This document shows, in pieces, positions 8,108 through 63,296 of a DNA stretch of 64,000 nt. The notes below the pieces were generated by a model that had not been told where the DNA came from, searched no databases, and saw only the letters and a program-made list of their open reading frames with translations. The translations under genes and the position numbers were made by a program. Positions within the stretch are counted from its first letter, which is position 1; the number at the start of each line of letters is the position of its first letter. The stretch is from Salinigranum marinum (lineage in GTDB: Archaea > Halobacteriota > Halobacteria > Halobacteriales > Haloferacaceae), in assembly GCF_024228675.1 (NCBI RefSeq), contig NZ_CP100461.1:1550001-1614000 (forward strand). Direction: 5' to 3'.

Positions 8108-8112
8108 ACTCC

Positions 8113-8631
8113 ATGATCCGCAGGGCGGCTAAAACGGTCGCGGTGCTCGCCCTGCTGATAGTGGTAGCTGCACTGCTCGCGAACGCGTTCCCTGCTGCCG
8201 TCGGAGCGGACTACTCGTTTGTCGTCCAGTCCGGCAGTATGGAGCCGGCGATTCCGACTGGATCGGTCGTCTTCGTCAAGGACGTGCCGGCCGAGCGAAT
8301 CGACGAAGGCAACGTAATTACCTTCGCGGACGCACGAGGTCAGCCGACCACTACCCACAGAGTCGTCGAGAAACACCAGGCCGACGACTCGATCAGGTTC
8401 CGGACAAAGGGAGACAACAACGAAGATCCCGACCCCGAGCCGGTCTACAGGAGCGAGATCGTCGGGGTGGTCGCCTTCTCGATCCCCTACTTGGGATACC
8501 TGACGGCGTTCGCGAGCACGAAGACGGGGTGGATCCTCTTCGTCGTCGCTCCGGTGACGCTCCTGATCACGTCGGAGCTGTGGGAACTGTACGAGTCACT
8601 CGAAGTAGTGGACGGTGAAACAGATGAGTAA
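8113..8631 (+). CDS. Signal peptidase I, SipW/ER type
   Basis: Membrane-bound serine protease (172 aa) that should cleave the signal peptides of the neighbouring secreted proteins. It has an N-terminal membrane helix (residues 7-28). The catalytic Ser is in QSGSMEPAIPTGS near residue 42, and a His in TTTHRVVEKH near 80 replaces the Lys of bacterial LepB. An acidic TKGDNNEDPDPEP box near 100 holds the catalytic Asp. A further hydrophobic pair lies near 118-160. The Ser-His-Asp arrangement is that of archaeal, ER and SipW enzymes. It lies 5 nt after the first TasA-like gene and overlaps the next start by 8 nt, so translation is probably coupled. Confidence 0.88.
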   Translation: MIRRAAKTVAVLALLIVVAALLANAFPAAVGADYSFVVQSGSMEPAIPTGSVVFVKDVPAERIDEGNVITFADARGQPTTTHRVVEKHQADDSIRFRTKGDNNEDPDPEPVYRSEIVGVVAFSIPYLGYLTAFASTKTGWILFVVAPVTLLITSELWELYESLEVVDGETDE

Positions 8632-8812
8632 CGAATCCGAAATCACACGACGGAAGCTGCTCGCGAGTGTCGCCGTCGTCGGTGCCGGCTCGGCACTCGG
8701 TGGGGCCGGCACGCACGCCGCACTCTCCGATCGCGAGGAGGCGACGGCGTCGTTCCAGGCGGGTCGAGTGATCCTCAAAGTGAGCCCCGAGACCCAGGAG
8801 TTCGGGCCATGA
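8624..8812 (+). CDS. N-terminal fragment of split SipW-dependent protein
   Basis: A 62-residue frame holding only a SipW-type signal peptide (TRRKLLASVAVVGAGSALGG, then THAALSDREEATASFQAGR) and the first mature strands, ending VSPETQEFGP and a TGA at 8810-8812. The ATG at 8624 overlaps the peptidase stop. The next frame begins in the TGA (ATGA) in the -1 frame and continues with the linker and second domain expected of such a protein but has no signal peptide. The two frames look like one gene split by a frameshift. The ATGA junction also allows coupled translation of two products. Confidence 0.6.
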   Translation: MSNESEITRRKLLASVAVVGAGSALGGAGTHAALSDREEATASFQAGRVILKVSPETQEFGP

Positions 8813-9594
8813 CGGAGACAGCCGACTCAACGCCGGAATCGACACCGGAACCGACCGACGAGTCGACCGACACGCCGGAGCAGACGGACGATTCGACGGA
8901 GACGCCGGAGTCGGCTGAGACCGACACGCCGGAACCGGCCGAGACCGACACGCCGGAGCCGACCGAGACCGACACGCCGGAGCCGACCGAGACCGACACG
9001 CCGGAACCGGCCGAGACCGACACGCCGGAACCGGCCGAGACCGACACGCCGGAGCCGACCGAGACCGACACACCGGAGTCGACGGGTCAATCGACGGAGA
9101 CGCCGGAGTCGACCGAGACCGACACGCCGGAACCGACCGAGTCCGAAGCCGAAACGGATCAAGGCGATGAGCCTGGAGCGGTGTCGAGCGACGAGGCTTC
9201 CGGCAACCGTTCGGAGGAGTACGTCGCTGACTGGGAGGTTTCGAACGAGGGAACAGTGGACGCCGATCGTCTACTGTTGACCCGACTCTCCGTCGATGTC
9301 CGGGGGCTCAACGGCTCGACCCGCGAGGAGGCGCTCAAGTCGGCGCGGATCACCCTCGCCAGGTACGAGGGCGACGACGTGTCGGAGGTCCCCGGAACGC
9401 TCTGGGCGCTGGCCCGGGTGCTCGACGAACGCGACATCGAACTCGGCTCCGGCGAAGACGGACCGGAGCTCCCGGCACGCGAAGCGAAGGTTCGGACCTT
9501 CGAACTCGGCGTCCGATTCGACTACTCGGGACTCAGCGGCACCGGTGGCTACTCTGTCGCCGCCTCGCCCGAGTTCACGATCGAGCAGTCGTAG
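8809..9594 (+). CDS. C-terminal part of split secreted protein, Thr/Pro/Glu repeats
   Basis: A 261-residue frame. Residues 1-125 are a low-complexity linker of TPEPxETD repeats, rich in Thr, Pro, Glu and Asp, as found in exposed haloarchaeal surface proteins. Residues 140-258 form a folded domain starting EEYVADWEVSNEGTVDADRL, which resembles the strand pattern after the signal peptide in camelysin-like proteins, and ending YSVAASPEFTIEQS. No signal peptide is present in this frame, although the linker and its neighbours point to export. This supports a frameshift fusing it to the 62-residue upstream frame. Without that fusion it would remain cytoplasmic and probably non-functional. Confidence 0.6.
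   Translation: MTETADSTPESTPEPTDESTDTPEQTDDSTETPESAETDTPEPAETDTPEPTETDTPEPTETDTPEPAETDTPEPAETDTPEPTETDTPESTGQSTETPESTETDTPEPTESEAETDQGDEPGAVSSDEASGNRSEEYVADWEVSNEGTVDADRLLLTRLSVDVRGLNGSTREEALKSARITLARYEGDDVSEVPGTLWALARVLDERDIELGSGEDGPELPAREAKVRTFELGVRFDYSGLSGTGGYSVAASPEFTIEQS
8914..9081 (+). repeat. Seven tandem 24-bp repeats coding ETDTPEPx
   Basis: Seven consecutive 24-nt units (unit start GCCGAGACCGACACGCCGGA) encode A/T-ETDTPEP. Units differ at a few third positions and at the Ala/Thr codon, and the last ends in Ser. The unit length is divisible by three, so copy-number change would lengthen or shorten the linker without altering frame. Confidence 0.85.
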
Positions 9595-9639
9595 TCCCAC
9601 GACGGTTCACGGTCCACGGTTCGACTCCGTGGGTGGGAC
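9594..9639 (+). other. Stable stem structure between operon genes
   Basis: GTCCCAC (9594-9600) pairs with GTGGGAC (9633-9639), and CCACGG (9614-9619) pairs with CCGTGG (9627-9632) around the loop TTCGACT. The two helices abut, resembling an acceptor/T-arm minihelix of a tRNA, but no D or anticodon arm fits in the 13-nt remainder. It starts at the last base of the preceding stop and lies 15 nt before the next ATG, so an effect on translation or processing of the last operon gene is possible. Confidence 0.4.
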
Positions 9640-9654
9640 CTGAGGTGTGAACGC

Positions 9655-10710
9655 ATGGAACTGAGCCGACGGACGGTGCTGACATCACTGGGACTGATCG
9701 GTGGGGGTGCCACACTCGGTGGTGTTGGAACCCGGGCGCTCCTCAGTGATACCGAGGAGGTAGTGACGACGTTCTCGGCCGGCGAACTCGACGTCGAACT
9801 CGACTGGCAGGCGATCCACAACGGCACGCAGGTCGACTCGATGTCGCCGACCCAGACCGACGGCGAGGTGGCCGCAGCCTTCGAGGACGTCAAGCCGGGA
9901 GACACCGGCTGTTTCAGTCTACGCGTTCACAACGACACGAACCCCGCGTGGGTGTGGCTCGCGGTCGAGATCGACGACGAAACCGAGGGCGATCCCGATC
10001 CAGTCGACGAGACCACGTGCACGACGGTCGGCAAGATCGAGAACTACGACGGCGACACGTTCGACACCGTCGAGAACGGGCGTCAGGTCGACCCTGGTGT
10101 CTACGAGTTCGGCGTCGACGGTGAGACCGTCACGGTCGAGGTGACGATCACGGAAGAGAAGCCAGAGTCCGGCAAAGCCGACGAGGCGGTCGCGTTCACC
10201 GCCGAAGTGATCGAGGGCTCCTACGGACTGTGTGCCGTCACGGTCAAGTCGAGCACGACCACCGACACCACCACGTTCGACGACTGCACGGTCTCGACCG
10301 ACGAGATCAGGACCCCGGCGACGAACGAGCAGGGAATCGAACAGGGCATCAGTTTCGTCGAGTTCGCCGTCTGTGAGACCGAACAGTCGACGGGGTCGAA
10401 TCACACCGACCTGGCAGACGAGATCGTCGTCGATCTCTTCTGGGACGACGACCGAGACTGTGAGCTCGATTCCGACGAGACCTCGCTCTTCGAGGACGAG
10501 GCACTCAGTGATCTAGTGGACCGAACCGACGAGGCGGCAGGAGGGGTCAGGCTCGACAGCTTTCGGACCGGGACGAGGACCCTCTCCATCCGGTGGCGAC
10601 TGCCTTTCGAGGTCGGAAACGAGATACAGGGTGACGAGATCGAGCTGTCGTTCTCGATCTACGCCGAGCAGCGTCGCCACAACGACGACCCGGAGAGCCC
10701 CTGGAGTTGA
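9655..10710 (+). CDS. SipW-dependent TasA-like secreted protein 2
   Basis: A 351-residue exported protein. Its signal peptide, SRRTVLTSLGLIGGGATLGG, leads to TRALLSDTEE, with mature sequence TFSAGELDVELDW. It shares DVKPGDTGCFSLRV (near residue 82) and a C-terminal PFEVGNEIQGD plus RRH block with the first gene of the operon, so they are paralogues. It has several cysteines (GLCAVTV, FDDCTVS, RDCELDSDE) and a very acidic mid-region. It is the last gene of the four-frame operon after the stem structure. A role as a second subunit or anchor of a surface fibre is inference. Confidence 0.78.
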   Translation: MELSRRTVLTSLGLIGGGATLGGVGTRALLSDTEEVVTTFSAGELDVELDWQAIHNGTQVDSMSPTQTDGEVAAAFEDVKPGDTGCFSLRVHNDTNPAWVWLAVEIDDETEGDPDPVDETTCTTVGKIENYDGDTFDTVENGRQVDPGVYEFGVDGETVTVEVTITEEKPESGKADEAVAFTAEVIEGSYGLCAVTVKSSTTTDTTTFDDCTVSTDEIRTPATNEQGIEQGISFVEFAVCETEQSTGSNHTDLADEIVVDLFWDDDRDCELDSDETSLFEDEALSDLVDRTDEAAGGVRLDSFRTGTRTLSIRWRLPFEVGNEIQGDEIELSFSIYAEQRRHNDDPESPWS

Positions 10711-10863
10711 CGGGGTCGTGGCCGTGGCTCGGCGTCCAACTCGGTCGGCGTAGCGTTTCTCGCACCCCACGGCAGCCGCGACTGACGAACGGCACTCGGG
10801 TCGGACGGGTCGGACGCGCTCGCGAGGGAAATCCTGATACCGCGTCTCGTCATAGGCGGAGGC

Positions 10864-45160: not shown

Positions 45161-46375
45161 TCACTCGGTCACCCCTGCCAGGGACAGGATTCGCTTACAC
45201 CGGTCACGCCATGAGTACCGTGTCGCCGTCTCATAAGCGTTCCGCGAGAGCCGGTCGGCCAGCGCCTCGTCGTCGAGGGCGCGTTCGACGAACGCGGCCA
45301 GTTCGTCGATGTCGTTCGGCGCCGCGAGCAGCGCGTCCTGTTCGTGTTCGACGGTTCGGCTGACAGCGGGAATGTCGCTGGAGACGACCGGCCGCCTCGA
45401 CGCGAGATACTCGAACAGTTTCAGCGGCGACGTCGACTCCAGATCCATCAACGTGACCTCTCGTTCGGTGTCGTACGGCATCAACAGCACGTCGGCGGCC
45501 GCGAGGTACGTCGGGACGAGGCAGTTCTCGACGTGGCCCGAGAAGTGAGCGTTCTCGGCGTTGAGGTCGGCCGCCACACCGCGCCACTTCGCGACGTCGT
45601 CGTCGGAGCCACCGACGAGTTGGAACCGTCGGTCGGGCAGGCGCGCGGCGACGCGCAGGACGTGTTCGATCCCCTTGTCGGCGTGTAGCGAGCCGAGGTA
45701 CATCACGACGTCGCTGTCCTGCGGGAGCGACACCCGCTCCCGGGCAGTGTGCTTGTCGGGCGCGGCGTCGAACTGCGCCAAGTCGACGCCGTCTTGCAGG
45801 ACAGCGACCTTCTCCTCGGGGACGCCAGCGTCGACGAAGTTCGTCTTCAGCCGCTCGGAGATCGTCACGAGCAGGCGGAACTCCGGCGACGTGCTGTTGC
45901 GAACGGCTCGTTTGAGCGACGGTTTCCGGATGCGCGGCGTGTGTGTCTCCATGACGGTCGGGACACCGCGTTCGACGGCGTAGTTGACCGCTCGGTACGA
46001 CCGGCAGTAGCAGACGTCGACGCCCGCGTCGACGCAGCGGTCGACGATGGCGCGTTCGGGGTCGGCCACCCGCCGGGCGGCCCCGAACGTCGCGTACGTC
46101 AGCGCGTCGAGCGCGAGCCCCAGTGGCCAGACGTCGCGAAGGTAGTACGGCGTCCGGTCGGTGAAAAAGCGGACGTCGATCGACGAGTCGATCCCGTAGT
46201 AGTCGGTCACGGACGATACCTCGCGGCGGTGTCGTCTCTCGGACAGCCGCTCGACGGTGAGCAGTTCGACGTCGTGTCCCAGTTGTGCGAAGCCGTTGGC
46301 GTTCTTCGCGACCGCGACACTGTGTGCCCACTGCGAGGGAACGTGACCCGAACTGACGACGGCGACCCGCATCAA
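45161..46375 (-). CDS. Glycosyltransferase family 4 (first)
   Basis: A 404-residue GT-B enzyme. The N-terminal domain begins VAVVSSGHVPSQWAHSVAVAKNANG. The donor domain has DVVMYLGSLHADKGIEHVLRVA near 225 and the acidic EX7E region in PLKLFEYLASRRPVVSSDIP near 318. The ATG at 46375 overlaps the stop of the upstream GT4 gene (ATGA), so both are cotranslated. The sugar is unknown. It belongs to the aglG-led operon. Confidence 0.85.
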   Translation of the reverse strand: MMRVAVVSSGHVPSQWAHSVAVAKNANGFAQLGHDVELLTVERLSERRHRREVSSVTDYYGIDSSIDVRFFTDRTPYYLRDVWPLGLALDALTYATFGAARRVADPERAIVDRCVDAGVDVCYCRSYRAVNYAVERGVPTVMETHTPRIRKPSLKRAVRNSTSPEFRLLVTISERLKTNFVDAGVPEEKVAVLQDGVDLAQFDAAPDKHTARERVSLPQDSDVVMYLGSLHADKGIEHVLRVAARLPDRRFQLVGGSDDDVAKWRGVAADLNAENAHFSGHVENCLVPTYLAAADVLLMPYDTEREVTLMDLESTSPLKLFEYLASRRPVVSSDIPAVSRTVEHEQDALLAAPNDIDELAAFVERALDDEALADRLSRNAYETATRYSWRDRCKRILSLAGVTE

Positions 46376-47565
46376 CTCTCCTCCCGAACGAGCCGCCCGT
46401 ACAGCGCCGCCTCACGCCCGGCGATCGTGTCGAGGCTGTACTCCGTATCGATCGTCCGCCGGGCGTTCGTCCCCAGTTCCTCCCGGAGCGCCGCGTCGGT
46501 GATCACTCTATCGATCGCCGCCCGAAGCGACGCTGGATCGGTCTCACAGAGCAGTCCGTCCGTCCCGTGGGTGACAACCTCGTTGATCCCCTGTACGTCG
46601 GTGCCGACGACCGCCAGCCCGCAGGACATCGCTTCGAGCAGGGTTTTCGGCATCCCTTCGAACTTCGACGGGAGGACGAACGCCTCGTGTTCGTTCAACA
46701 GCGCCGGGAGGTCGTGGTTCGGGACCCGCCCCACGAAGGTCACGTCGGCACCGACCTCGTCGGCCAGCTCGGCCAGATCGTCGCGGAGTGCTCCGTCCCC
46801 GACGACCGTCAGGCGGTACGGCGTCGGGCCGAGAGCGCGGACGAGCGCGCGAAGGTTCTTCTGTGGAGCGAGTCGGCCCACGAAACAGAGGCTGTTCGGG
46901 CGTGTCTCGACGTCTATCGGCCGGAAGACGTCGGTCTCGATGTAGTTCGGGAGCATGAGATGTTCGCCGCGAACCCAGTACCGGTCTTCGACGGACGCGT
47001 GCCCGCGGGGAGAGGAGGTGAACACGGCGTCTGCGAAGCAGTACGCCACCGCCTCGAGCGTGGTCGCCACGACGCGGATCGGGAGCGGCTTGTCGAGTTC
47101 GTCGTAGAACGTCGAGAGGACGTAGCCCGTCCGGACGACCAGCGCCGGACCGCAGAGGTACTTCGCGAGAAGCGCGGTCCACGAACCGAGCATCTGGTTC
47201 GTCTTCACCACGTCGACCTCCCGGAGGAGCCGGTAGTGGACGAGGGGGGCGAGAAACGAGTACAGCAGGTCGTTGTGGACGCGGCGCTTCGGGACGATCT
47301 CCACGTTGTCGGCGAGGTGGTCCGTGTACGCGCGGTCGGACGCGTCGCCGTACGTGAAGAGGTAGACGTGGTCGGCGTGATCGGCGAGGCGGTTGTAGAC
47401 GGCCACCTCGCGGTCGAGCATGCCGTCTTCGAACCACGCGCGTATCGTCACGCCGAAGGTGAAAAACAGCGCGATCGTCACGCCGTCGACCGCGGCGGTC
47501 GGTTCCGCTGCGCCGTCGAGTGGCGCGTCGTCAGTCGTCGTGTGAGCGTCGTCGGGTGCGTGCAT
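46372..47565 (-). CDS. Glycosyltransferase family 4 (second)
   Basis: A 397-residue GT-B enzyme. An acidic 25-residue leader precedes TIALFFTFGVTIRAWFEDGM. LCFVGRLAPQKNLRALVRALG near 225 and the EX7E-type motif in LPSKFEGMPKTLLEAMSCGLAV near 305 are the donor-site signatures. The ATG at 47565 fits the family start; the longer frame runs into the aglG gene. It lies 17 nt after aglG. Confidence 0.85.
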   Translation of the reverse strand: MHAPDDAHTTTDDAPLDGAAEPTAAVDGVTIALFFTFGVTIRAWFEDGMLDREVAVYNRLADHADHVYLFTYGDASDRAYTDHLADNVEIVPKRRVHNDLLYSFLAPLVHYRLLREVDVVKTNQMLGSWTALLAKYLCGPALVVRTGYVLSTFYDELDKPLPIRVVATTLEAVAYCFADAVFTSSPRGHASVEDRYWVRGEHLMLPNYIETDVFRPIDVETRPNSLCFVGRLAPQKNLRALVRALGPTPYRLTVVGDGALRDDLAELADEVGADVTFVGRVPNHDLPALLNEHEAFVLPSKFEGMPKTLLEAMSCGLAVVGTDVQGINEVVTHGTDGLLCETDPASLRAAIDRVITDAALREELGTNARRTIDTEYSLDTIAGREAALYGRLVREES

Positions 47566-47582: not shown

Positions 47583-48512
47583 TCAGTCGGTGCGGACAGC
47601 CTGGACGATCGCGTAGAGGTAGCCGAGGCCGACGAGGGCGGTGAACGCGAGGAGCGAGAGCAGTTGGAGCCCGTCGGCGACCGACGGCGACCGCACGAGC
47701 GAGGCGGCCCGCCCGGGGAGCGACTCCGTGAGGAGAAACCGGAGGAAGTCGGTCTCCTCGTCGTCGTCGTTGTCTGGGAGAATCGTCGCCATGGTCCGCT
47801 TCGAGTACCCCTGCCAGAACGCGCGGTCGACGAGCCACCGTGGGTCGGTCCGGTAGTCGAACACCTTGTGTTCGACGACGGCGTCGGGGTCGTACCAGAC
47901 GCCCTGTCCGTACCGCTCTCGCACCCGTGCGGCGAACTCCGTCTCCTCGCCCTGGAGGTTCTTCTCCCCCGAGCGTCCCAGGTTCGTCTCGAACCCACCG
48001 AGTTCCTCGAACACCTCGCGCCGAAAGGAGATGTTCGAGCCGAACGTGTTGCGCACCTCCTGCTCGTCGGTCGGGAAGCCGCGGTGGGTGACGCCGACGA
48101 GCCAGTCGAACTCCGCGGGGAGGAACGACGGCCGCCCGGCGACCCACCGACCGGCCATCCGCCCGCCGGCCGCGACGGCGCCGTGGTGGTCGTACAGGTC
48201 GACGAGGCGCTCGATCCAGTCGGGGTGGGCGACGGCGTCGTCATCCATGAACGCGACGACGTCGCCGGCGGCGAGATCGACCCCGACGTTGCGGCTCTCC
48301 GAGAGCCCCCTGTTCCGGTCGTTGCAGTGGATCACGACGTCGTCGTGGCTCCCGTACCGATCTCGAACCTGCCCGGCGAGCGTCTCGTCGCCGTCGACGA
48401 CGACCACCAGTTCGACGTCGTCGTACGTCTGCGCCAAGAGGCTGTTGGCGGCGTCGACGAAGTGGTCGAACACCGCCGGCGAGTACGTGCAGATGACGAC
48501 GGAAACCTTCAC
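47583..48512 (-). CDS. aglG: Dolichyl-phosphate-glucose glucuronosyltransferase AglG-like
   Basis: A 309-residue GT2 enzyme; in Haloferax, AglG adds the second sugar, a glucuronate. The start is VSVVICTYSPAVFDHFVDAAN. ELVVVVDGDETLA lies near 38, VVAFMDDDAVAHPDW (DDD metal motif) near 90, and a GEETEFAARVRERYG catalytic region near 192. One C-terminal membrane helix is at about 283-303. A TATA-like ACATATGAGA (48535-48544) supports leaderless expression from 48512. It heads the minus-strand operon and is divergent from aglM, which makes its donor. Confidence 0.83.
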   Translation of the reverse strand: MKVSVVICTYSPAVFDHFVDAANSLLAQTYDDVELVVVVDGDETLAGQVRDRYGSHDDVVIHCNDRNRGLSESRNVGVDLAAGDVVAFMDDDAVAHPDWIERLVDLYDHHGAVAAGGRMAGRWVAGRPSFLPAEFDWLVGVTHRGFPTDEQEVRNTFGSNISFRREVFEELGGFETNLGRSGEKNLQGEETEFAARVRERYGQGVWYDPDAVVEHKVFDYRTDPRWLVDRAFWQGYSKRTMATILPDNDDDEETDFLRFLLTESLPGRAASLVRSPSVADGLQLLSLLAFTALVGLGYLYAIVQAVRTD

Positions 48513-48693: not shown

Positions 48694-49998
48694 ATGCAGA
48701 TCAGCGTCATCGGGAGCGGCTACGTGGGGACGACGCTCGCGGCCTGTCTGGCCGATCTCGGCCACGACGTCGTCAACGTCGACATCGACGAGGGTATCGT
48801 CGACACGATCAACGACGGGAAGCCACCGATCCACGAGGACCGACTGCCGGAGCTCGTCGCGCGACACGTCACCGACACGGGGCGGCTCCGGGCGACGACC
48901 GACTACGAGGCGGTGCTCGAGACGGACGTGACGTTCGTCGCCCTCCCGACGCCCTCCGACGCCAGCGGACGCATCGACCTCTCGATCATGGAGGCCGGAG
49001 CCGAACAGCTCGGGGAGACGCTCGCCGCGAAGGAGGGGTGGCACACGGTCGTCGTCAAGAGCACGGTCGTTCCGGGGACGACCCAAGACCTGATTGCGCC
49101 CACGATCGAGGCCGCGAGCGGCAAGACGCTCGGCGAGACGGTCGGGGTGGGGATGAACCCCGAGTTCCTCCGCGAGGGGACCGCGGTGGCCGACTTCCTC
49201 GACCCCGACAAGGTCGTTCTCGGAGCAGACGACGACCGGACCCTTCGCGACCAGCGCGCGCTCTACGAGTCGCTCACGGAACGGAGCGAGACGACGGTCG
49301 TCGAGACGGGAACGAGGGAGGCTGAGATGATGAAGTACGCGAACAACGCCTTCCTCGCGGCGAAGGTTTCGCTCATCAACGATCTCGGGAACATCTGCAA
49401 GGAACTCGGGGTCGACACATACGAGATCGCCGACGCGATGGGGCTCGACGACCGCATCCAGCGTGCCTTCCTCGACTCGGGGCTCGGCTGGGGCGGATCG
49501 TGTTTCCCGAAGGACGTCGCGGCCATCACCGCCGCCGCGCGGGACGCGGGCTACGAGCCGCCCATGTTGAGCGCCGCCGTCGAGGTGAACGACCTGATGC
49601 CCCAGCGGCTGCTGTCGCTCCTCGACGACCACGTCGACGTCGCGGGGAAACGGGTCGCACTGCTCGGACTGGCGTTCAAGCCCGGCACCGACGACGTTCG
49701 GGAGACGCGGTCGGCGGCGCTCCTCCGCGGGCTCTCCGAGCGGGGTGCGGAGGTCGTCGCCCACGACCCCGCCGCGGTCGAGACGTTCCGGGCGTCGTTC
49801 CCCGACCTCGACTTCGCGGCCGTCGACACGCCGGAAGAAGCGCTCGACGGCGCACACGCCTGCATCGTGGCGACCGCCTGGCCGGCGTACGCGGCGCTCG
49901 ACGCCGCGTTCGACGCGATGGCCACGCCGCTCGTCCTCGACGGTCGCCACTGCGTCGAACCCCGCGAGGGGATCGTCTACGAGGGGTTGACCTGGTGA
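48694..49998 (+). CDS. aglM: UDP-glucose 6-dehydrogenase AglM
   Basis: A 434-residue enzyme that oxidises UDP-glucose to UDP-glucuronate with two NAD. It starts MQISVIGSGYVGTTLAACLADLG. The catalytic Cys is in GLGWGGSCFPKDVAAI near 270, and a conserved Lys/Asn helix, EMMKYANNAFLAAKVS, near 210. ALLGLAFKPGTDDVRETRS near 328 is the UDP-binding C-domain signature. A T-rich promoter element, GGCTTTTTCT (48661-48670), lies about 28 nt upstream of the ATG. It neighbours aglG and aglB as in Haloferax. Confidence 0.92.
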   Translation: MQISVIGSGYVGTTLAACLADLGHDVVNVDIDEGIVDTINDGKPPIHEDRLPELVARHVTDTGRLRATTDYEAVLETDVTFVALPTPSDASGRIDLSIMEAGAEQLGETLAAKEGWHTVVVKSTVVPGTTQDLIAPTIEAASGKTLGETVGVGMNPEFLREGTAVADFLDPDKVVLGADDDRTLRDQRALYESLTERSETTVVETGTREAEMMKYANNAFLAAKVSLINDLGNICKELGVDTYEIADAMGLDDRIQRAFLDSGLGWGGSCFPKDVAAITAAARDAGYEPPMLSAAVEVNDLMPQRLLSLLDDHVDVAGKRVALLGLAFKPGTDDVRETRSAALLRGLSERGAEVVAHDPAAVETFRASFPDLDFAAVDTPEEALDGAHACIVATAWPAYAALDAAFDAMATPLVLDGRHCVEPREGIVYEGLTW

Positions 49999-50189: not shown

Positions 50190-53100
50190 ATGAGTCAGCG
50201 TAGCGAGCGTGCCGAGGAGGTGTCCGTCGCCGACGGGCAGTCCGTCCTCGACACCTTCGAAGACTGGTTCCACGTCCCCGTTCTCTTCGTGGCGATGGCG
50301 TTCATGGTGGCCATCCGCCTCCAACGGATGGACACGTTCACGCAGGACGGGACGGTTTACTTCCGCGGAAACGACGCATGGTACCACCTGCGTGAGGTGA
50401 ACTACACGGTCCGGAACTGGCCGGCGACGATGCCGTTCGACCCCTGGACGTACTTCCCGTACGGAACGAGCGTCGGGCAGTTCGGGACGCTGTACGACCA
50501 GATCGTCGCCACGGTTGCGCTCGTCGTCGGGTTCGGATCGCCCAGTCAGTCGCTCGTCTCGACGACGCTTCTCGTCGCCCCCGTGGCGTTCGGTGCGCTC
50601 GCGGTGATCCCGACGTACTACCTCGGCGCGCGCCTCGGTGGTCGCGCCGGCGGCCTGTTCGGCGTGGTCATCCTGGCGCTCCTGCCCGGGACGTTCCTCC
50701 AGCGGACGATCGTCGGCTTCGCCGACCACAACGGGGCGGAGCCGTTCTTCCAGGCGCTCGCCGTGCTGGCGCTCGTCGTCGCGCTCTCGGTCGCCGCGGA
50801 GGAGAAGCCGATCTGGGAACTCGTCACCGCCCGGGAGGTCGACGAACTCCGCCGACCGGCGATCTACGCCGCCCTCGCCGGCGTGGCGATGGCGGGCTAC
50901 ATGTGGGTGTGGCCGCCGGGCATCCTCCTCGTCGGGATCTTCGGCGTCTTCCTCCCGCTCAAGATCGCGAGCACGGTCGTCGCCGGCCGGACGCCCGACC
51001 CCATCGCGTTCGTCGGCGCGGTCGCGGGCGGCGTCACGGCCGTCCTCATGTTGATCCCGCTGCAGACGCTGTCGTTCGCGTCGGCCGAGTTCTCGCTCCT
51101 CCAGGTGGCTGCCCCGGCCGCGGTCGCCGCCAGCGCCGTCGGCTTCGCGTGGCTCGCCCGCCAGTGGGAGCACCGCGACGTCGACCCGGCGCTGTTCCCA
51201 CTCGGCGTGTTCGGCGTCGCCGTCATCGGATTCGGCGTCGTCGCGCTCGTGGTCCCCTCGACGCTCGACGCCGTCCAGGGTGGCCTCTTCCGCATCGTCG
51301 GCTTCTCGCAGGCGGCCGCGACTCGTACCATCGGCGAGGCACAGGCGTTCCTCTCGCCCGGCACCCTCCAGCAGCAGTCCGTCGACGCGACGGGGCGGAT
51401 CCTCCTGGAGTACGGCTTCACCCTCTTCACTGGCGTCGCGGCCGCGGTCTGGCTGCTCGCCAAGCCGCTCGTCGACGAGGGGGAGACGCGCCAGTTGGCG
51501 TACGTCGGCGGGGCGCTCGCCGTCGTTGCGTTGATCTTTCTCGTTCCGAGCGTGTTCGGCACGATCGGCGACTTCGTCGGGCTGAACTCGCAGGTCACCA
51601 GCCTCATCGTCGTGGCGCTTCTGCTCGTCGGCGCGACGTTGCTCACGGACTACGACTCCGACCGCCTGCTGATCGTCGTCTGGGCGGCGTTCATCACGGC
51701 GGCAGCGTTCACGCAGGTCCGGTTCAACTACTACCTCGCCGTGGTCGTCGCGGTGATGAACGCGCACCTGCTCGGCGAACTCCTACGCATGATCGACCTC
51801 CAGTCGCTCCCGAAGTCGGTGTCGGAGATCAGCGCGTGGCAGGTCATCACTGTCGGCGTCGTCGTCATGCTCGTCCTCGCGCCGGTGCTCGTGGTTCCGC
51901 TAAACGTCCGCAACACGGGCAACCCAGAGTTCGACAGCAGCACGACCGCGTGGGAGACGGCCCAGGGGAACGCCCCCGGGAGCGTCCTCGAGTGGGACGG
52001 GAGCCTCCGGTGGATGGCGAACGAGACGCCCGCGGAGGGGACCCTCGGCGGCGCGTCGAACGAGATGGACTACTACGGCACGTTCGAGCGAACCGAGGAC
52101 TTCGCGTACCCGGATGGGGCGTACGGCGTCCAGTCGTGGTGGGACTACGGCCACTGGATCACGGTCCGCGGCGAGCGGATCCCGAACGCCAACCCGTTCC
52201 AGGAGGGGGCGCGTGAAGCCGCGAACTACCTGCTCGCGCCCACGGAGGAGCAGGCAGAGACGGTGTTGGCCCGACAGAGCGAGGAGGGCAACGACACGCG
52301 GTTCGTCATGGTCGACTGGCAGATGGCCTCGCCCAACTCGAAGTTCGGCGCGCCGGTCGTCTTCTACGACGAGCAGAACGTCTCCCGCGAGGACTTCGTC
52401 AACCAGATGTATACCCAGAACTTCCGCGGGAGCATCACCGTCCGCGACCAGCGGTACTACGAGAGCCAGATGATCCGGCTGTACCACTACCACGGGAGCG
52501 CGGTCGAGCCGCGGCCCGTCGTGGTCGACTGGGAGAACCGCCAGGCGCAGACCCAGACCGGCCAGAACATCGATGTTCGGACGTTCCCGAGTAACCGGAC
52601 GGACAGCGTCCGCGAGTTCCGGAACATGACCCAGGCGCGCGCGTACGTCGAGCAAGACGGGAGCGCCCAGGTCGGCGGTATCGGTGCGTTGCCCTCCGAG
52701 CGAGTGCCAGCACTACAACACTACCGGCTCGTGAAGGTCAGCAACGAGTCGGCGGTCAGTTCGGGGTCGTACCAGCGGCAGTACCTCCTCACCCAGCAGC
52801 TGACGGGCTATCCGGCGGCCCGAACGTTCGTCACGAACCCCTCGTGGCTGAAGACGTTCGAGCGGGTTCCGGGTGCGCGCGTCGAGGGGAGCGGTGCACC
52901 GCCGAACGCGAACGTGACCGCCGAGGTCGAGATGCGCGCCCCGACCGGCAACTACACCTTCACCTACCGACAGCAGGCGCAGGCGAACGCCGACGGCGAG
53001 TTCACGATGGTGCTACCGTACTCGACGACCGGCTACGACGACTACGGACCGGACAACGGGTACACCAACGTGAGCGTCCGCGCGACCGGCCCGTACACTA

Positions 53101-53426
53101 TCAGCACGCCCGGCGAACTCGTCGAACTCAACGGCTCCGCGGGCGTCGAGCAGTACCGGTCGAACCTCACCGTGAGCGAGGGACAGGTCAACGGCGACCA
53201 GCAGGGGACGGTCGACGTGACCCTCGAGCGCGAGACGAACGAACTGTCGTTCAGCGACGTCGAGGCCGGTGTCGAGCCGACGACACCGACGACCCCAACG
53301 GCACCGACCACGCCGTCGACGACCGCGACCGGCGCGGCGGACGCGCCGGCGGAGCCGGCGTCCGACGCGACCGCCGAGCGCGTTGCGCCGTCCGCTCCGA
53401 TCGATCCCGCAGCGCGCGTCCGCTGA
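50190..53426 (+). CDS. aglB: Oligosaccharyltransferase AglB (STT3 family)
   Basis: A 1078-residue membrane enzyme that transfers lipid-linked glycan to Asn in N-x-S/T sequons on the outer face. Residues 28-575 hold about 13 membrane helices, with acidic loop motifs FRGNDAWYHL near 60 and FADHNGAEPFF near 180 that bind the metal and lipid-phosphate. The signature WWDYG occurs as QSWWDYGHWITVRG near 650. A large outer domain follows. The last 55 residues are a Thr/Pro/Ala-rich tail, an unusual low-complexity extension. The ATG at 50190 is set by the TATA box. A DUF368 gene follows after 1 nt. Confidence 0.95.
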   Translation: MSQRSERAEEVSVADGQSVLDTFEDWFHVPVLFVAMAFMVAIRLQRMDTFTQDGTVYFRGNDAWYHLREVNYTVRNWPATMPFDPWTYFPYGTSVGQFGTLYDQIVATVALVVGFGSPSQSLVSTTLLVAPVAFGALAVIPTYYLGARLGGRAGGLFGVVILALLPGTFLQRTIVGFADHNGAEPFFQALAVLALVVALSVAAEEKPIWELVTAREVDELRRPAIYAALAGVAMAGYMWVWPPGILLVGIFGVFLPLKIASTVVAGRTPDPIAFVGAVAGGVTAVLMLIPLQTLSFASAEFSLLQVAAPAAVAASAVGFAWLARQWEHRDVDPALFPLGVFGVAVIGFGVVALVVPSTLDAVQGGLFRIVGFSQAAATRTIGEAQAFLSPGTLQQQSVDATGRILLEYGFTLFTGVAAAVWLLAKPLVDEGETRQLAYVGGALAVVALIFLVPSVFGTIGDFVGLNSQVTSLIVVALLLVGATLLTDYDSDRLLIVVWAAFITAAAFTQVRFNYYLAVVVAVMNAHLLGELLRMIDLQSLPKSVSEISAWQVITVGVVVMLVLAPVLVVPLNVRNTGNPEFDSSTTAWETAQGNAPGSVLEWDGSLRWMANETPAEGTLGGASNEMDYYGTFERTEDFAYPDGAYGVQSWWDYGHWITVRGERIPNANPFQEGAREAANYLLAPTEEQAETVLARQSEEGNDTRFVMVDWQMASPNSKFGAPVVFYDEQNVSREDFVNQMYTQNFRGSITVRDQRYYESQMIRLYHYHGSAVEPRPVVVDWENRQAQTQTGQNIDVRTFPSNRTDSVREFRNMTQARAYVEQDGSAQVGGIGALPSERVPALQHYRLVKVSNESAVSSGSYQRQYLLTQQLTGYPAARTFVTNPSWLKTFERVPGARVEGSGAPPNANVTAEVEMRAPTGNYTFTYRQQAQANADGEFTMVLPYSTTGYDDYGPDNGYTNVSVRATGPYTISTPGELVELNGSAGVEQYRSNLTVSEGQVNGDQQGTVDVTLERETNELSFSDVEAGVEPTTPTTPTAPTTPSTTATGAADAPAEPASDATAERVAPSAPIDPAARVR

Positions 53427-53427
53427 G

Positions 53428-54405
53428 ATGAACCGCCGCGACGCGGCCCTCGGCTGGCTCATCATCTACCTGAAGGGGATCTGTATGGGGACCGCCGACG
53501 CGGTGCCGGGCGTCTCGGGCGGGACGATCGCCCTCGTGACGGGCATCTACGAACGGCTCATCGGCGCGATCACCGCCGTCTCCCCCGGTCGGTTGCGGGA
53601 GTTCCTGGGGGTCGTCGTGCCCGGTGAGACGCGGGCCGACGCGTGGCGAGCCGCCCGCGAGATGGACCTCGTGTTCCTGGCGGTGCTGGGAACGGGCGTC
53701 GTGACGGCCGTCATCACGGTCACGCGGGTCGTCGACACGGCCATCGAGACGGTACCCGTGCTCACGTTCGGCTTCTTCTTCGGGCTGATCGCCGCCTCGG
53801 CGGTGGTGTTGTGGAGCGACGTGCAGTTCGACACGCGGGGCCGTGTGGTCGCCGCGGTCGCGGGCTTCTCCTTCGCGTTCGTCGTCTCCGGACGCGCCGC
53901 CGCGGCGTTCGGTCACCGTCCGCTGGTGACCTTTTTCGCCGGTATGATCGCCGTCAGCGCGCTCGTCCTGCCCGGTATCTCCGGGTCGCTCATCCTCATC
54001 CTCATCGGCCAGTACGAGTTCATGATCGGGACGCTGCGGGAGGCGGTCGACGGGCTGTTGGCGGTCGCGCTCGGGGGGAGTGTCCCCGGTCTCGGCCCCT
54101 CGCTCGTCACCGTCGTGACGTTCGTCACTGGGGCGCTCGTTGGGCTGTTCACCACCTCACACGTCGTCCAGTGGGCGCTCAGCCGCCGCCGCGAGGCGAC
54201 GCTCGCCTTCCTCGTCAGCCTCATCGTGGGTGCGTTGCGCGCACCGATCGCCGACGTGAGCCGTCGGCTCGCCGAGGCCAACCGCGGCTGGACGCCGGAG
54301 CTCGTCGGCACGTTCCTCGCCGCCGCGGTGGTCGGCGGCGTGATCGTCGTCCTCGTCGAGCGGAGCACGTCGTTGGGACTCGGCGACGGGTCGGACGCGG
54401 CGTAA
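53428..54405 (+). CDS. DUF368 (PopT-type) polyprenyl-phosphate transporter
   Basis: A 325-residue membrane protein with about eight to ten hydrophobic segments. It contains two copies of the family motif: TADAVPGVSGGTIALVTGIYE near 22 and LVLPGISGSLILILIGQYE near 177, as expected for an inverted-repeat transporter. In bacteria, DUF368 proteins were shown to move undecaprenyl phosphate back across the membrane. The gene is 1 nt after aglB, so it probably recycles the dolichyl phosphate released by AglB. This archaeal role is an inference. Confidence 0.85.
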   Translation: MNRRDAALGWLIIYLKGICMGTADAVPGVSGGTIALVTGIYERLIGAITAVSPGRLREFLGVVVPGETRADAWRAAREMDLVFLAVLGTGVVTAVITVTRVVDTAIETVPVLTFGFFFGLIAASAVVLWSDVQFDTRGRVVAAVAGFSFAFVVSGRAAAAFGHRPLVTFFAGMIAVSALVLPGISGSLILILIGQYEFMIGTLREAVDGLLAVALGGSVPGLGPSLVTVVTFVTGALVGLFTTSHVVQWALSRRREATLAFLVSLIVGALRAPIADVSRRLAEANRGWTPELVGTFLAAAVVGGVIVVLVERSTSLGLGDGSDAA

Positions 54406-58572: not shown

Positions 58573-59667
58573 CTACAGCCCCAGCGTCGGAACCCAGACG
58601 CTGGTGCTGAAGACGCCAGCGATGGCCAGGAGCGCGATGACGAGCGTGTTCACCACGATGGCCGCGGCCGGCGGGTCGAAGTGCGTGTCGGCGTGTGCGT
58701 AGAAGATCCGCTGGACGACCTCGCCGGTGAGGGCGCCACTGACACCGAAGACACCGGCGACGACCATCGCGGCCGCGCCGACTTCGGCGGCACCGCCCGT
58801 GACGGCCAGGGCGGCCGTCGAGGCGGGGAGCGTGATGTGATGGGTCACTGGGATCTTCGCGACGCCGAGGTTGAGGAACGTCAGCGACGCGGCGCTGATC
58901 CCGAAGCCAAGGAACGCACTCCCGGTCGTCAGCGCGATGACGCCGCCGAGGAGACCGGCCACGAGGCCGATCATGGCGACGTTACCCCACTCGTACTGGT
59001 GGCCGAGCCACGGCTCGACCGCCAGGCGTTCTTTGACCTCGCCGCCGTCGGTGGCGGCCGCACCGCCACTCGACCGCATCTCGCCGCGCTCGAACGGCCC
59101 CATGTCGAAGAGGCCGCCGCCGCGGACGGTCCCGATCAGATCGTAGCCGAACACGAGGCGGTGTGCGACCGCCGAGAGGACGACGGCGATGGCGATCGGG
59201 TCCCACGGGAGACCGACCGTCCCCGAGATGGCCGTGATGATGTACCCGAGGATGCCGAAGAGCCCACCCACAACGAGCACGTCGGGCTGGGTCCCCAGCG
59301 CCGCCGGGATGTTCTTCGCCTCGTGGTAGTCGAAGCCGAACTCGTCCATGTACCCCTTCTTCGCGGCGTAGGCCGCGGCGGCCGCACCGCCGGCGAAGGA
59401 GATGTGTGGACCGAACACGGTCCCGAACGCGATGGAACCGGTGATGCCCGGCGCGCCCAGGTTGGCGGCCGAGACGGCCTCGGCGCTCCCGACCGCGCTC
59501 ACCGCGAGGTTGGCCGCCTCACCGGCGATGACCATGAAGCCGGTGAAACAGAACGCCGGCAGGGCGCCGATCGCCGCACCGAACGCACCGCCTGCAAACG
59601 CCGCGAGCAACAGCCCGGGGTTCGCGATGGCGTCGATGATCGCCGAGGCTTGCAGGAGGAACGTCAT
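58573..59667 (-). CDS. GlpX-type membrane protein of the glycerol operon
   Basis: A 364-residue membrane protein with about ten hydrophobic, Gly/Ala-rich segments, beginning MTFLLQASAIIDAIANPGLL. In haloarchaea a protein of this type follows glpK and has been proposed to take part in glycerol uptake; it is unrelated to bacterial GlpX phosphatase. The hydrophilic loop at about 190-225 is cytoplasmic-like. The ATG immediately follows the glpK stop, with no gap, so it is translated in the same operon. Transport is a proposal, not shown by sequence. Confidence 0.7.
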   Translation of the reverse strand: MTFLLQASAIIDAIANPGLLLAAFAGGAFGAAIGALPAFCFTGFMVIAGEAANLAVSAVGSAEAVSAANLGAPGITGSIAFGTVFGPHISFAGGAAAAAYAAKKGYMDEFGFDYHEAKNIPAALGTQPDVLVVGGLFGILGYIITAISGTVGLPWDPIAIAVVLSAVAHRLVFGYDLIGTVRGGGLFDMGPFERGEMRSSGGAAATDGGEVKERLAVEPWLGHQYEWGNVAMIGLVAGLLGGVIALTTGSAFLGFGISAASLTFLNLGVAKIPVTHHITLPASTAALAVTGGAAEVGAAAMVVAGVFGVSGALTGEVVQRIFYAHADTHFDPPAAAIVVNTLVIALLAIAGVFSTSVWVPTLGL

Positions 59668-61215
59668 CTAGTCGTCACCACCGTCGCGAGCCCAGTCCTC
59701 CGAGCGGGCGACCGCCTCGTTCCAGCGCTCGTAGTTCGACTCGTAGTCGGCGTCGTCGTCGGGCTCGAACTCGCGGTCGACCTGCCAGTTGTCGCGGAGT
59801 TCGTCGATCGTGTCCCAGTAGCCCACCGCGAGCCCCGCGGCGTACGCGGAGCCGAGGGCGGTGGTCTCGTCGACGACCGGGCGCACGATGTCGGTGTCTA
59901 TGATGTCCGCCTGCAGTTGGCAAAGGAAGTTGTTCTTCACTGCACCGCCGTCGACGCGGAGCGCACCCATGTCGATGCCGGAGTCGGCCTCCATCGCCTC
60001 GGCGACGTCGCGCGTCTGGTACGCGATGGATTCGAGCGTCGCGCGGACGACGTGTTCGCGCCGCGTCCCACGCGTCATGCCGACGATGGTCCCGCGAGCA
60101 CGGCCGTCCCAGTGCGGCGCGCCGAGCCCGGCGAACGCGGGGACGACGTAGACATCGTCCGTGGATTCAACCGAGCGCGCGAGCTCTTCGGTCTCGGCGG
60201 CGCTGTCGATGAGTGTCATGTCCTCGAGCCACTCGATCGCCGCGCCGGTGATGAAGATCGCCCCCTCAAGGGCGTACTGGACCGGCTCGCCGGACCGCTG
60301 GAAGCCGATCGTAGTGAGGAGACCGTGCTCGGAGGCGACAGCCTCGTTCCCGGTATTCATCAGCATGAACGAACCGGTGCCGTAGGTGTTCTTCGCGTCA
60401 CCCTCGTCGAAGCAGGTCTGGCCGAACAGCGCGGCCTGCTGGTCGCCGAGTGCGCCGGCGACTGGGATGTCGGCGTCGAGGAAGTCGGGTGACGTCTCGC
60501 CCGTGCTGCCGTAGTACTCGTCGTCCGACGACGGGCGGACCTCGGGCAGCATCGAGGCAGGGACGTTGAACTCCTCGAGGAGCTCCTCGTCCCACTCGTT
60601 GTCGTGGATGTTGTACAGCATCGTCCGCGAGGCGTTGGTGACGTCCGTGATGTGGTTGCCCGTGAGCTTGTAGATCAGCCACGAGTCGATCGTCCCCATC
60701 ATCAGTTCGCCGGCCTCGGCGCGGTCGCGGATGTCTTCGGGCCGCGAGCGCGACAGCTTGATCGGGTCCGCGTTGTCGAGGATCCACTCGGCCTTCGTCG
60801 CAGAGAAGTACGCGTCACACTCCAGACCGGTCTTGCCACGGATCCACTCGACCTTGTCCTCCTCCTGGATCTCTTCGACGCGGTCCGTGGTCCGGCGGTC
60901 CTGCCAGACGAGCGCGTTGTGGACCGGCTTTCCCGTCTCGGCGTCCCACACCACGGTCGTCTCGCGCTGGTTCGTGATGCCGAGCGCTTCGAGCTGCTCG
61001 GCGTCGAGGCCGGCCTCGTCGAGCGCCGTGTTGATGACGTGCTTCGTGTTCCGCCAGATCTCCGTCGCGTCGTGCTCTACCCAGCCCGGCTCGGGGTAGA
61101 TCTGTTCGTGCTTCTCGTAGGCGTTCGCGATCACTTCACCCGCGTGATCGAACACCATGAAGCGCGTTCCTGTCGTCCCTTGGTCGATCGCACCGACGTA
61201 TGTGTCCTGACTCAT
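59668..61215 (-). CDS. glpK: Glycerol kinase
   Basis: A 515-residue FGGY-family kinase that makes glycerol-3-phosphate. It opens YVGAIDQGTTGTRFMVFDHAG. ITNQRETTVVWDAETGKPVHNA lies near 80, GTIDSWLIYKLTGN near 175, the ATP-domain motif AKNTYGTGSFMLMNTG near 267 and VDGGAVKNNFLCQLQADI near 420. Length is normal. A TATA-like GATAAAGAAAC at 61251-61261 lies upstream. Divergent glpA makes the next step's enzyme. Confidence 0.95.
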   Translation of the reverse strand: MSQDTYVGAIDQGTTGTRFMVFDHAGEVIANAYEKHEQIYPEPGWVEHDATEIWRNTKHVINTALDEAGLDAEQLEALGITNQRETTVVWDAETGKPVHNALVWQDRRTTDRVEEIQEEDKVEWIRGKTGLECDAYFSATKAEWILDNADPIKLSRSRPEDIRDRAEAGELMMGTIDSWLIYKLTGNHITDVTNASRTMLYNIHDNEWDEELLEEFNVPASMLPEVRPSSDDEYYGSTGETSPDFLDADIPVAGALGDQQAALFGQTCFDEGDAKNTYGTGSFMLMNTGNEAVASEHGLLTTIGFQRSGEPVQYALEGAIFITGAAIEWLEDMTLIDSAAETEELARSVESTDDVYVVPAFAGLGAPHWDGRARGTIVGMTRGTRREHVVRATLESIAYQTRDVAEAMEADSGIDMGALRVDGGAVKNNFLCQLQADIIDTDIVRPVVDETTALGSAYAAGLAVGYWDTIDELRDNWQVDREFEPDDDADYESNYERWNEAVARSEDWARDGGDD

Positions 61216-61562
61216 TGTTGTAGCACCCTGTGTGTGCCAGCCCGTGCCGGACGTTTCTTTATCTGAGGTCCGGCAGTATCCGTAAACAGTGTGAAAGAGT
61301 GTGATAAACTTTGCTAATTCGTCGGCGGTCGAACACGTCTCCGGCGATCCTAAACAGTCAATGCACGCTCGCGCACGCAGGGAGTATGGAGAATGTATCG
61401 GAGCGTCTCGGCTTCGTGGAGGCGTTTCCGGCGATCACCGGAGCGACGGTCACGCAGGGGGGTGAACACCGGATCGCGGTTCGTGATACCACGGGTAGTA
61501 CGTACCGAGTCCGGAGGAGGGGTAAAGTAAAGTAGTCCGCGTTCTCAGCCTTACAAAGATTA
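61216..61562. promoter_or_regulatory. glpK/glpA divergent control region
   Basis: A 347-bp region holding promoters for both directions (GATAAAGAAAC for glpK; GATAAACTTT near 61302 for the rightward side), a 49-codon frame, and TCGTC-GGCG-GTCGA at 61319-61332. The last resembles the inverted repeat reported for Haloferax GlpR, as I remember it. The match could be chance in GC-rich DNA. Confidence 0.45.
61386..61535 (+). CDS. Possible 49-aa small protein ahead of glpA
   Basis: A frame from the ATG at 61386 begins MENVSERLGFVEAFPAITG and ends TYRVRRRGKVK, with a TAG at 61533-61535. It lies 27 nt before glpA and about 30 nt after an AT-rich CCTAAACAG. The basic end is unusual for a halophile, and no family is recognised. 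It may be a real small protein, a leader ORF for glpA, or chance. Confidence 0.4.
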   Translation: MENVSERLGFVEAFPAITGATVTQGGEHRIAVRDTTGSTYRVRRRGKVK

Positions 61563-63296
61563 ATGACAGACACACCAGAGGTCCTGGTCATCGGTGGGGG
61601 TTCGACGGGCACAGGGATCGTCCGCGACCTGGCGATGCGGGGCATGGACGCCACGCTCGTCGAGCAGGGGAACCTCACGCACGGCACGACGGGACGAATG
61701 CACGGGCTGCTGCACAGCGGCGGTAGGTACGCGGTCACCGACCAGCCGAGCGCGAAGGAGTGCATCGAGGAGAACCGGGTGCTGCGAGAGATTGCGAGCC
61801 ACTGCGTCGAGATGACCGGTGGCCTGTTCGTCAAGCGACCGGAGGACACCGAGGAGTACTTCGAGAAGAAGCTCCAGGGCTGTCACGACTGCGGCATCCC
61901 GACCGAGGTGCTCTCGAACGAGGAGGCCCGCCAGTTGGAGCCGTACCTCGCGAAGGACATCGACAAGGCCATCCGGGTGCCGGACGGAGCGATCGATCCG
62001 TTCCGGCTCTGCGTCGCCAATGCCGCCTCCGCGGAGGAACACGGCGCGCGCATCGAGACCCACTCGAAGGTCGTCGACGTGCTCGTCGAGGCGGGCGAGG
62101 TCGTCGGCGTCGAGGTCGAACACGCCTCGGGGCAGGGCAAGCGCGTCCACGGCAAGACGGCCCAGCGCGAGAAGATCTACGCCGACTACGTGGTGAACGC
62201 CACCGGCGCGTGGGCAGGGCGCGTCGGCGACATGGCAGGCGTCGACATCGAGGTCCGCCCGTCGAAGGGCGTCATGACGATAATGAACGTCCGGCAGGTC
62301 GACACGGTCATCAACCGCTGTCAACCGAAGGGGAACGCGGACATCATCGTCCCGCACGAGACCACGGCCATCCTCGGAACGACCGACGAGGAGGTCGAAG
62401 ACCCCGAGGATTACCCCGAGGAGGAGTGGGAGGTCGATCTCATGATCTCCGAACTGTCGAAGCTCGTGCCGATGCTCAAGGAGGCCCGGACCATCCGGTC
62501 GTTCTGGGGCGTTCGGCCGCTGTACGAGCCGCCGGGGACGGGGACGACGGACCCGACCGACATCACGCGGGACTTCTTTCTCCTCGACCACGACGACCGC
62601 GACGATCTGCCGGGGATGACGAGCATCGTCGGCGGGAAGTTCACGACGTACCGGATGATGGCCGAGAAGATCACGGACCACGTCTGCGAGAAGTTCGGCG
62701 ACACCACCGAGTGTCGGACCGCGGACGTCCCGCTCCCCGGGAGCGAGGACTTCTCCGTGCTCCGTGACTACATGGACGAGTTCGGCCTCCGGTCGCCAAT
62801 CGGTCGGCGCTCCGTCCAGCGGCTGGGGTCGCGCGCCGACGAGGTGCTGAAGACCGAGGGTCCGAACCCGACCGTCTGCGAGTGTGAGGGCGTCACCCGC
62901 GCGGAGGTCAGAGACGGGATCAAGCAGGCCGGGTCGGACCTCAACGCCGTTCGCATCCGCACGCGGGCGTCGATGGGTAACTGCCAGGGGGCCTTTTGCT
63001 GTCACCGAATGGCGAACGAACTCGCCATGGAGTACCCCGAACCGGTCGCCCGCGAGGCGCTGGACGAACTCTACCAGGAGCGCTGGAAGGGCGAGCGACA
63101 CGCGCTCTGGGGCGAGCAGCTCTCGCAGGCAATGCTGAAACACCTGCTGCACGCGACGACCATGAACCGCGACGGCGACCCGGTCCGAACGGGCACCGAG
63201 GTTGACTTCGGCGCGTTCGACGGCGGGCCGGCGGTCGGAGAGGACTCGACGGCGGAGCGAGCGGCGGCTGACGGAGGCCGGCAGGATGCCGATTAG
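61563..63296 (+). CDS. glpA: Glycerol-3-phosphate dehydrogenase subunit A
   Basis: A 577-residue FAD enzyme that oxidises glycerol-3-P to dihydroxyacetone-P, feeding electrons through GlpBC to quinone. The FAD motif is [20 protein letters not shown] near 8-27. [10 protein letters not shown] lies near 50 and [17 protein letters not shown] near 355. The C-terminal BFD-like [2Fe-2S] domain has [11 protein letters not shown] near 439 and [10 protein letters not shown] near 471. Ser/Ala-rich residues end it. It is the first gene of glpABC; glpB overlaps its end by 11 nt. Confidence 0.94.

Follow-up and report, generated by a model that had tools for sequence, protein, structure and literature searches.

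A PopT-like DUF368 gene paired with aglB in Halobacteria is a candidate for the return of dolichyl phosphate in N-glycosylation

In bacteria, DUF368 proteins have been reported to return undecaprenyl phosphate (Und-P) (PMC12826051, PMC9876793), and strains that lose both DUF368 and DedA proteins keep Und-P outside (PMC12826051). An archaeal member, HVO_RS12060 of Haloferax volcanii, was reported to partly complement a vca0040 mutant of Vibrio cholerae for growth under alkaline conditions (PMC9876793). The haloarchaeal protein described here shares with PopT/VCA0040 the Pfam family (PF04018), both PG[VI]SG motifs and a two-repeat plan; it differs from it in being encoded together with an oligosaccharyltransferase and in its expected cargo, dolichyl phosphate (DolP) instead of undecaprenyl phosphate. 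The DedA/UptA undecaprenyl-phosphate flippases (PF09335) have the same proposed role in recycling carrier-lipid phosphates, but they form another Pfam family, and among the loci whose aglB neighbours were listed no gene for them was recognised next to aglB.

For Haloferax and Halobacterium, dolichyl monophosphate has been described as the carrier on which the glycan is put together and from which AglB transfers it outside the cell (PMC3871713, PMC11980604, PMC4476749). AglR, Agl15 and Agl29, the proposed flippases of glycan-charged DolP, serve membrane steps of haloarchaeal N-glycosylation, as the DUF368 protein would; they act outward on charged carriers, whereas the DUF368 protein is proposed to return the bare carrier. 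In the available parts of the literature on both pathways, nothing is said about how DolP gets back to the cytoplasm once N-glycosylation has taken place. The agl clusters of Haloferax volcanii (HVO_1517-HVO_1531) and Halobacterium salinarum (VNG1048G-VNG1068G) are anchored by aglB, like the locus described here, and in the accessible portions of PMC3871713 and PMC4335974 they end with aglM (HVO_1531) and aglB (VNG1068G), respectively. Since the described limits stop at these genes, a popT gene just beyond the edge would presumably go uncounted. An aglM-like gene may lie between aglB and popT in relatives of these clusters, and HVO_RS12060 is predicted to adjoin aglM. No paper on a link between aglB and DUF368 was found in the open-licence literature, and the companion paper on PopT may already note aglB; its abstract (Roney and Rudner 2022) reportedly mentions syntenic analyses. 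The Vibrio DUF368 paper, in the sections available, mentions neither aglB nor synteny (PMC9876793).

The window analysed here is a 64,000-nucleotide stretch of the Salinigranum marinum genome, in which aglB occupies positions 50190 to 53426 of the forward strand (open frame from 50046, with ATG 50190 as the preferred start). Its product matches the Pfam profiles STT3 (PF02516), AglB core (PF22627) and AglB_L1 (PF18079) and scores 923.2 bits against archaeo_STT3 (TIGR04154, cut-off 450). The TGA stop codon of aglB ends at 53426, and the single base G at 53427 parts it from the ATG of the DUF368 gene at 53428, so that the spacing of one nucleotide given in the initial annotation is exact. Upstream of aglB lies an aglM-type UDP-glucose 6-dehydrogenase gene on the same strand (48694 to 49998, scanned from 48688; 713 bits against NF041297, cut-off 670). 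A family 2 glycosyltransferase gene (47583 to 48512; PF00535, E 4.2e-25) diverges from the aglM-aglB pair and is followed on the reverse strand by genes for a family 1 glycosyltransferase (46372 to 47430; PF00534, E 1.1e-34) and a group 1 glycosyltransferase (45161 to 46375; PF13692, E 9.8e-22).

The popT-like gene itself is an intact frame of 325 codons on the forward strand, from the ATG at 53428 to a TAA stop ending at 54405, and it is the only DUF368 gene detected in a search of its genome. Residues 20–274 match PF04018 with 208.7 bits (E 1.3e-61) against a gathering cut-off of 26 bits, which bears out the family assignment made initially; no other Pfam family, DedA/UptA (PF09335) included, was reported for the protein at E 0.001. 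Against the NCBIfam polyprenyl-phosphate-transporter equivalogs NF052564 and NF052563 it scores 185.4 and 86.9 bits, below the cut-off of 400 bits. Judged from these profile scores, the protein is a member of PF04018 outside both equivalogs.

Both PG[VI]SG motifs are intact, as had been annotated: PGVSG at residues 27–31 (codons 53506 to 53520, forward strand) and PGISG at residues 182–186 (codons 53971 to 53985, forward strand). In an alignment of 53 bacterial and archaeal sequences, the P, G, S and G of both motifs never vary. The N- and C-terminal halves are homologous to each other (hhalign probability 98%, E 1.5e-13), and the structure model, for which 53 sequences were aligned, has high confidence (mean pLDDT 92.8, pTM 0.87). 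In this model, the helices are interrupted at both motifs. Searches for relatives in the PDB returned no sequence match at E 1 and no Foldseek match at E 0.001. The best VIA-align row (7z6n_B, Z 9.0, rmsd 4.2, 159 aligned residues) perhaps reflects a mere common helical arrangement, and the BbZIP and MFS rows, with Z values of 6–9, are not counted as relatives. No clear match in the PDB emerged from these searches.

A survey of 145 Halobacteria genomes found DUF368 and the AglB core in 144 each, and the two together in 143. In 95 of these 143 genomes, DUF368 is immediately downstream of aglB and in the same orientation, and in five more it lies 2.7–3.4 kb past the AglB core. The adjacency occurs in nine of ten families, the tenth being represented by a single genome (G021) with AglB and without DUF368. 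Of 68 rows in which the distance from the aglB stop to the DUF368 start could be measured, 37 give -4 to +6 nt and 63 give at most 157 nt; some genomes enter these rows more than once, through repeated or partial loci. Among named Halobacteria records, aglB is directly upstream of DUF368 in 11 of 18 loci, and the genera with the pair include Halorubrum, Halolamina, Haladaptatus, Haloglomus, Halorhabdus and Halostagnicola. In 22 of the 143 genomes, however, DUF368 is on the aglB contig at a distance of at least 123 kb, and in 18 the genes are on different contigs; these 40 genomes count against reading the linked copy as the recycler. For the remaining three, DUF368 could not be placed among the matches listed. 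In three of the five loci with separated genes (L089, L090 and L107), the intervening gene belongs to a UDP-glucose dehydrogenase cluster; in L105 two other genes intervene, and in L106 DUF368 was missed by the gene caller.

Beyond Halobacteria the picture is different. Within 196 genomes of the phylum Halobacteriota, 28 of the 163 outside the class (counted from the listing) carry DUF368, in none of them adjacent to STT3 and in four of them 12–20 kb away from it. Among Thermoplasmatota, DUF368 is present in 19 of 116 genomes, and in four of these 19 one or two genes separate DUF368 from an STT3 gene located some 5 kb upstream in the same orientation. Methanobacteriota carry it far more widely (104 of 120 genomes), and of 47 sampled DUF368-bearing genomes, 44 have STT3, none within 30 kb of DUF368. 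Because of these counts (0/28, 0/44 and 4/19), the link between aglB and DUF368 can be regarded as characteristic of haloarchaea, with a less tight counterpart in one group of Thermoplasmatota. As a pan-archaeal rule it was rejected: linkage across archaea, by which the initial annotation was to be judged, holds in Halobacteria and fails as a general archaeal feature. Many Methanobacteriota have pseudomurein walls, and DUF368 may serve wall-precursor carriers there.

Phylogenetic analysis separates two kinds of haloarchaeal copy. A quick tree comprised 107 rows; for a careful tree of 86 sequences, 21 of these rows were left out, three as long branches and the rest as near-duplicates or by thinning. 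In the latter, a single clade (bootstrap 96, SH-aLRT 94), here called type B, unites 19 standalone copies, whereas aglB-linked copies are spread over the remaining Halobacteria branches (type A, to which the gene in the window belongs). Unlinked haloarchaeal copies fall into type B in 19 of 24 cases, the other five being scattered among linked copies. The presence of linked copies across families together with the confinement of most unlinked ones to a single clade fits an ancestral aglB-popT pair. The type B clade is drawn from three families, a distribution that suggests horizontal spread, and in several genomes it accompanies a second DUF368 copy. Both types differ at position 16, just before the first conserved glycine (Lys16 in the window, codon 53473 to 53475 of the forward strand). 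A basic residue, Lys or Arg, occupies this position in 57 of 60 type A sequences (the three exceptions are all threonine), in 28 of 28 archaea outside Halobacteria and in 30 of 31 bacteria. It is lost in all 19 type B sequences, which have Tyr (8), Ile (7) or Val (4) instead. No glycosylation genes were recognised beside type B copies in the loci examined.

From these data a recycling cycle can be proposed. The glycan would be assembled on DolP inside the cell and then flipped out, AglB would move it to asparagines at the outer face, and DolP would stay behind in the outer leaflet without the need for a phosphatase. That DolP itself is left there would follow from the chemistry, since the donor of AglB is a DolP-glycan. 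The initial annotation had named dolichyl (pyro)phosphate as the released product; dolichyl monophosphate stands as the main product, while pyrophosphate was set aside, because the haloarchaeal donors reported are DolP species, in Haloferax among others, with one proposed exception in Halobacterium (PMC4476749, PMC3871713). The DUF368 protein, with one broken helix at PG[VI]SG in each of its two repeats, would then carry DolP to the inner leaflet for reuse. The linked protein is thus likely, though by no means certain, to be a PopT-type polyprenyl-phosphate transporter that forms one unit with AglB and returns DolP after its use. We infer DolP as the substrate, and equally the direction and driving force of transport and the standing of this copy as main recycler.

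A bolder version of this proposal is advanced only tentatively and may well prove wrong. AglB and the linked PopT could constitute a dedicated release-and-return module, in which AglB passes the used dolichyl phosphate on to the protein encoded beside it in the operon; type B would be a second, standalone lineage that lost the near-universal basic residue ahead of the first motif, took the place of the linked copy in parts of two families and changed its cargo or energy coupling.

The recycling step had initially been described as missing in archaeal N-glycosylation and filled by DUF368. This is too strong a statement, since DedA proteins, which recycle undecaprenyl phosphate in bacteria too, are universal in Halobacteria, being found in 145 of 145 genomes with seven matches in the genome of the window. 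DedA proteins could therefore do most of the DolP recycling, with DUF368 acting as a conditional helper at high pH or high Na+ and owing its place beside aglB to inheritance and a common need. In line with this, the DUF368 protein of Vibrio cholerae is reported to matter only under alkaline, Na+-rich conditions (PMC9876793), and DUF368 and a DedA orthologue are described as nearly mutually exclusive in Pseudomonas (PMC12893004), so that each can apparently replace the other. Yet Halobacteria retain DUF368 in 144 of 145 genomes although DedA is universal. Moreover, replacement of a lost popT by a DedA-like gene beside aglB was not recognised in the loci of seven unlinked genomes, as judged by cluster comparison and reading; a few DedA genes lie 7–20 kb from aglB in the Halobacteria survey. 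An auxiliary role of DUF368 behind DedA is considered unlikely.

A further alternative concerns the breadth and direction of transport. One Halobacteria genome (G118, locus L064), scored as 100% complete, keeps a type B DUF368 gene, and no AglB was detected in it with PF22627, PF02516 or the AglB protein of the window as query; it represents a natural AglB-negative case. Since this genome has DUF368 without AglB and DedA occurs in all 145 genomes, the role of DUF368 may be shared with DedA or be wider than AglB. The same genome, its converse G021 (AglB without DUF368) and the universal DedA all speak against a role exclusive to AglB. DUF368 could thus move DolP-linked sugars outward, or serve several DolP pathways, such as those for exopolysaccharide or DolP-mannose, and not AglB in particular. 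The location of standalone type B copies apart from any recognised glycosylation gene and the frequent occurrence of DUF368 in Methanobacteriota, without aglB linkage in those examined, are compatible with this view. On the other hand, AglR, Agl15 and Agl29 are the proteins credited with outward flipping (PMC3871713, PMC11980604), bacterial members of the DUF368 family act on the carrier when it bears no glycan, and the linkage partner of DUF368 is the very enzyme that releases the carrier, which makes this explanation improbable.

With regard to gene order, the 37 directly adjacent loci were compared, separated loci being left out. The gene callings are heuristic, with DUF368 missed in four of 45 linked loci (the window excerpt, L106, L110 and L146). 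The genes following DUF368 fall into 30 sequence clusters, the largest with four members, and those preceding aglB into 17, with 27 of 37 in the opposite orientation. The pair is stable in variable surroundings, and its occurrence in Halobacteria is not due to chance. Part of a wider neighbourhood is kept as well: the gene before aglB belongs to a family 2 glycosyltransferase cluster in 16 loci, and glycerol-operon-like genes of clusters c5 and c10 follow aglB-popT at a distance of a few kb in 11 (for example L099, L100 and L144), forming a wider ancestral neighbourhood with the pair. Although such remnants would suit a pairing inherited as gene order only, without shared function, this is very improbable in view of the persistence of the pair over nine families amid scrambled flanks, often with overlapping or abutting codons, and of the comparable arrangement in four Thermoplasmatota genomes.

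If DolP return by the linked DUF368 protein is accepted as the preferred reading, the conserved aglB-popT pair names a candidate gene for this step in tractable hosts. The contrast between type A and type B (Lys/Arg16 versus Tyr, Ile or Val) is a natural one that bears on mechanism. Were the proposal true, the range of DUF368 transporters would reach beyond wall-building bacteria to protein glycosylation, with a bearing on the return of dolichyl phosphate in eukaryotes, which are reported to be without DUF368 (PMC9876793).

Several minor observations were made on the loci surveyed. Downstream in the window, glycerol-operon-like genes occupy 59668 to 63296, with members of clusters c5 and c10 (an FAD oxidoreductase and a 4Fe-4S CCG protein). 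Adjoining a gene that reads as glycerol-kinase-like, a 364-residue membrane-like protein is encoded at 58573 to 59667 on the reverse strand, with no Pfam match at E 0.001. In the four Thermoplasmatota loci (L180, L220, L221 and L222), the order, with gene names read from sequence, is phosphoribosyl-pyrophosphate-synthetase-like, aglB, in some cases a small gene, dihydroorotase-like, DUF368 and phosphatase-like. In several loci of Halobacteriota outside the class (L047, L049, L053-L056, L061, L062 and L126), DUF368 is found near a phosphoglycerate-mutase-like gene, a sugar epimerase gene and genes for 2-oxoacid:ferredoxin oxidoreductase. The neighbours of type B and methanogen popT genes (peptidases, thermosome, phosphoglycerate mutase, epimerase and 2-oxoacid oxidoreductase subunits) were considered as functional clues and gave no consistent lead. 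The only surveyed Halobacteria genome without DUF368, G021, has two DedA matches and AglB at positions 7911–10721 of locus L063, followed by a gene that reads as PIN-domain-like. In Halonotius roseus (G315, the genome of locus L143), the AglB match at C2:226723-229683 contains one in-frame TAA, which may represent a sequencing error, the end of the frame or a decaying gene.
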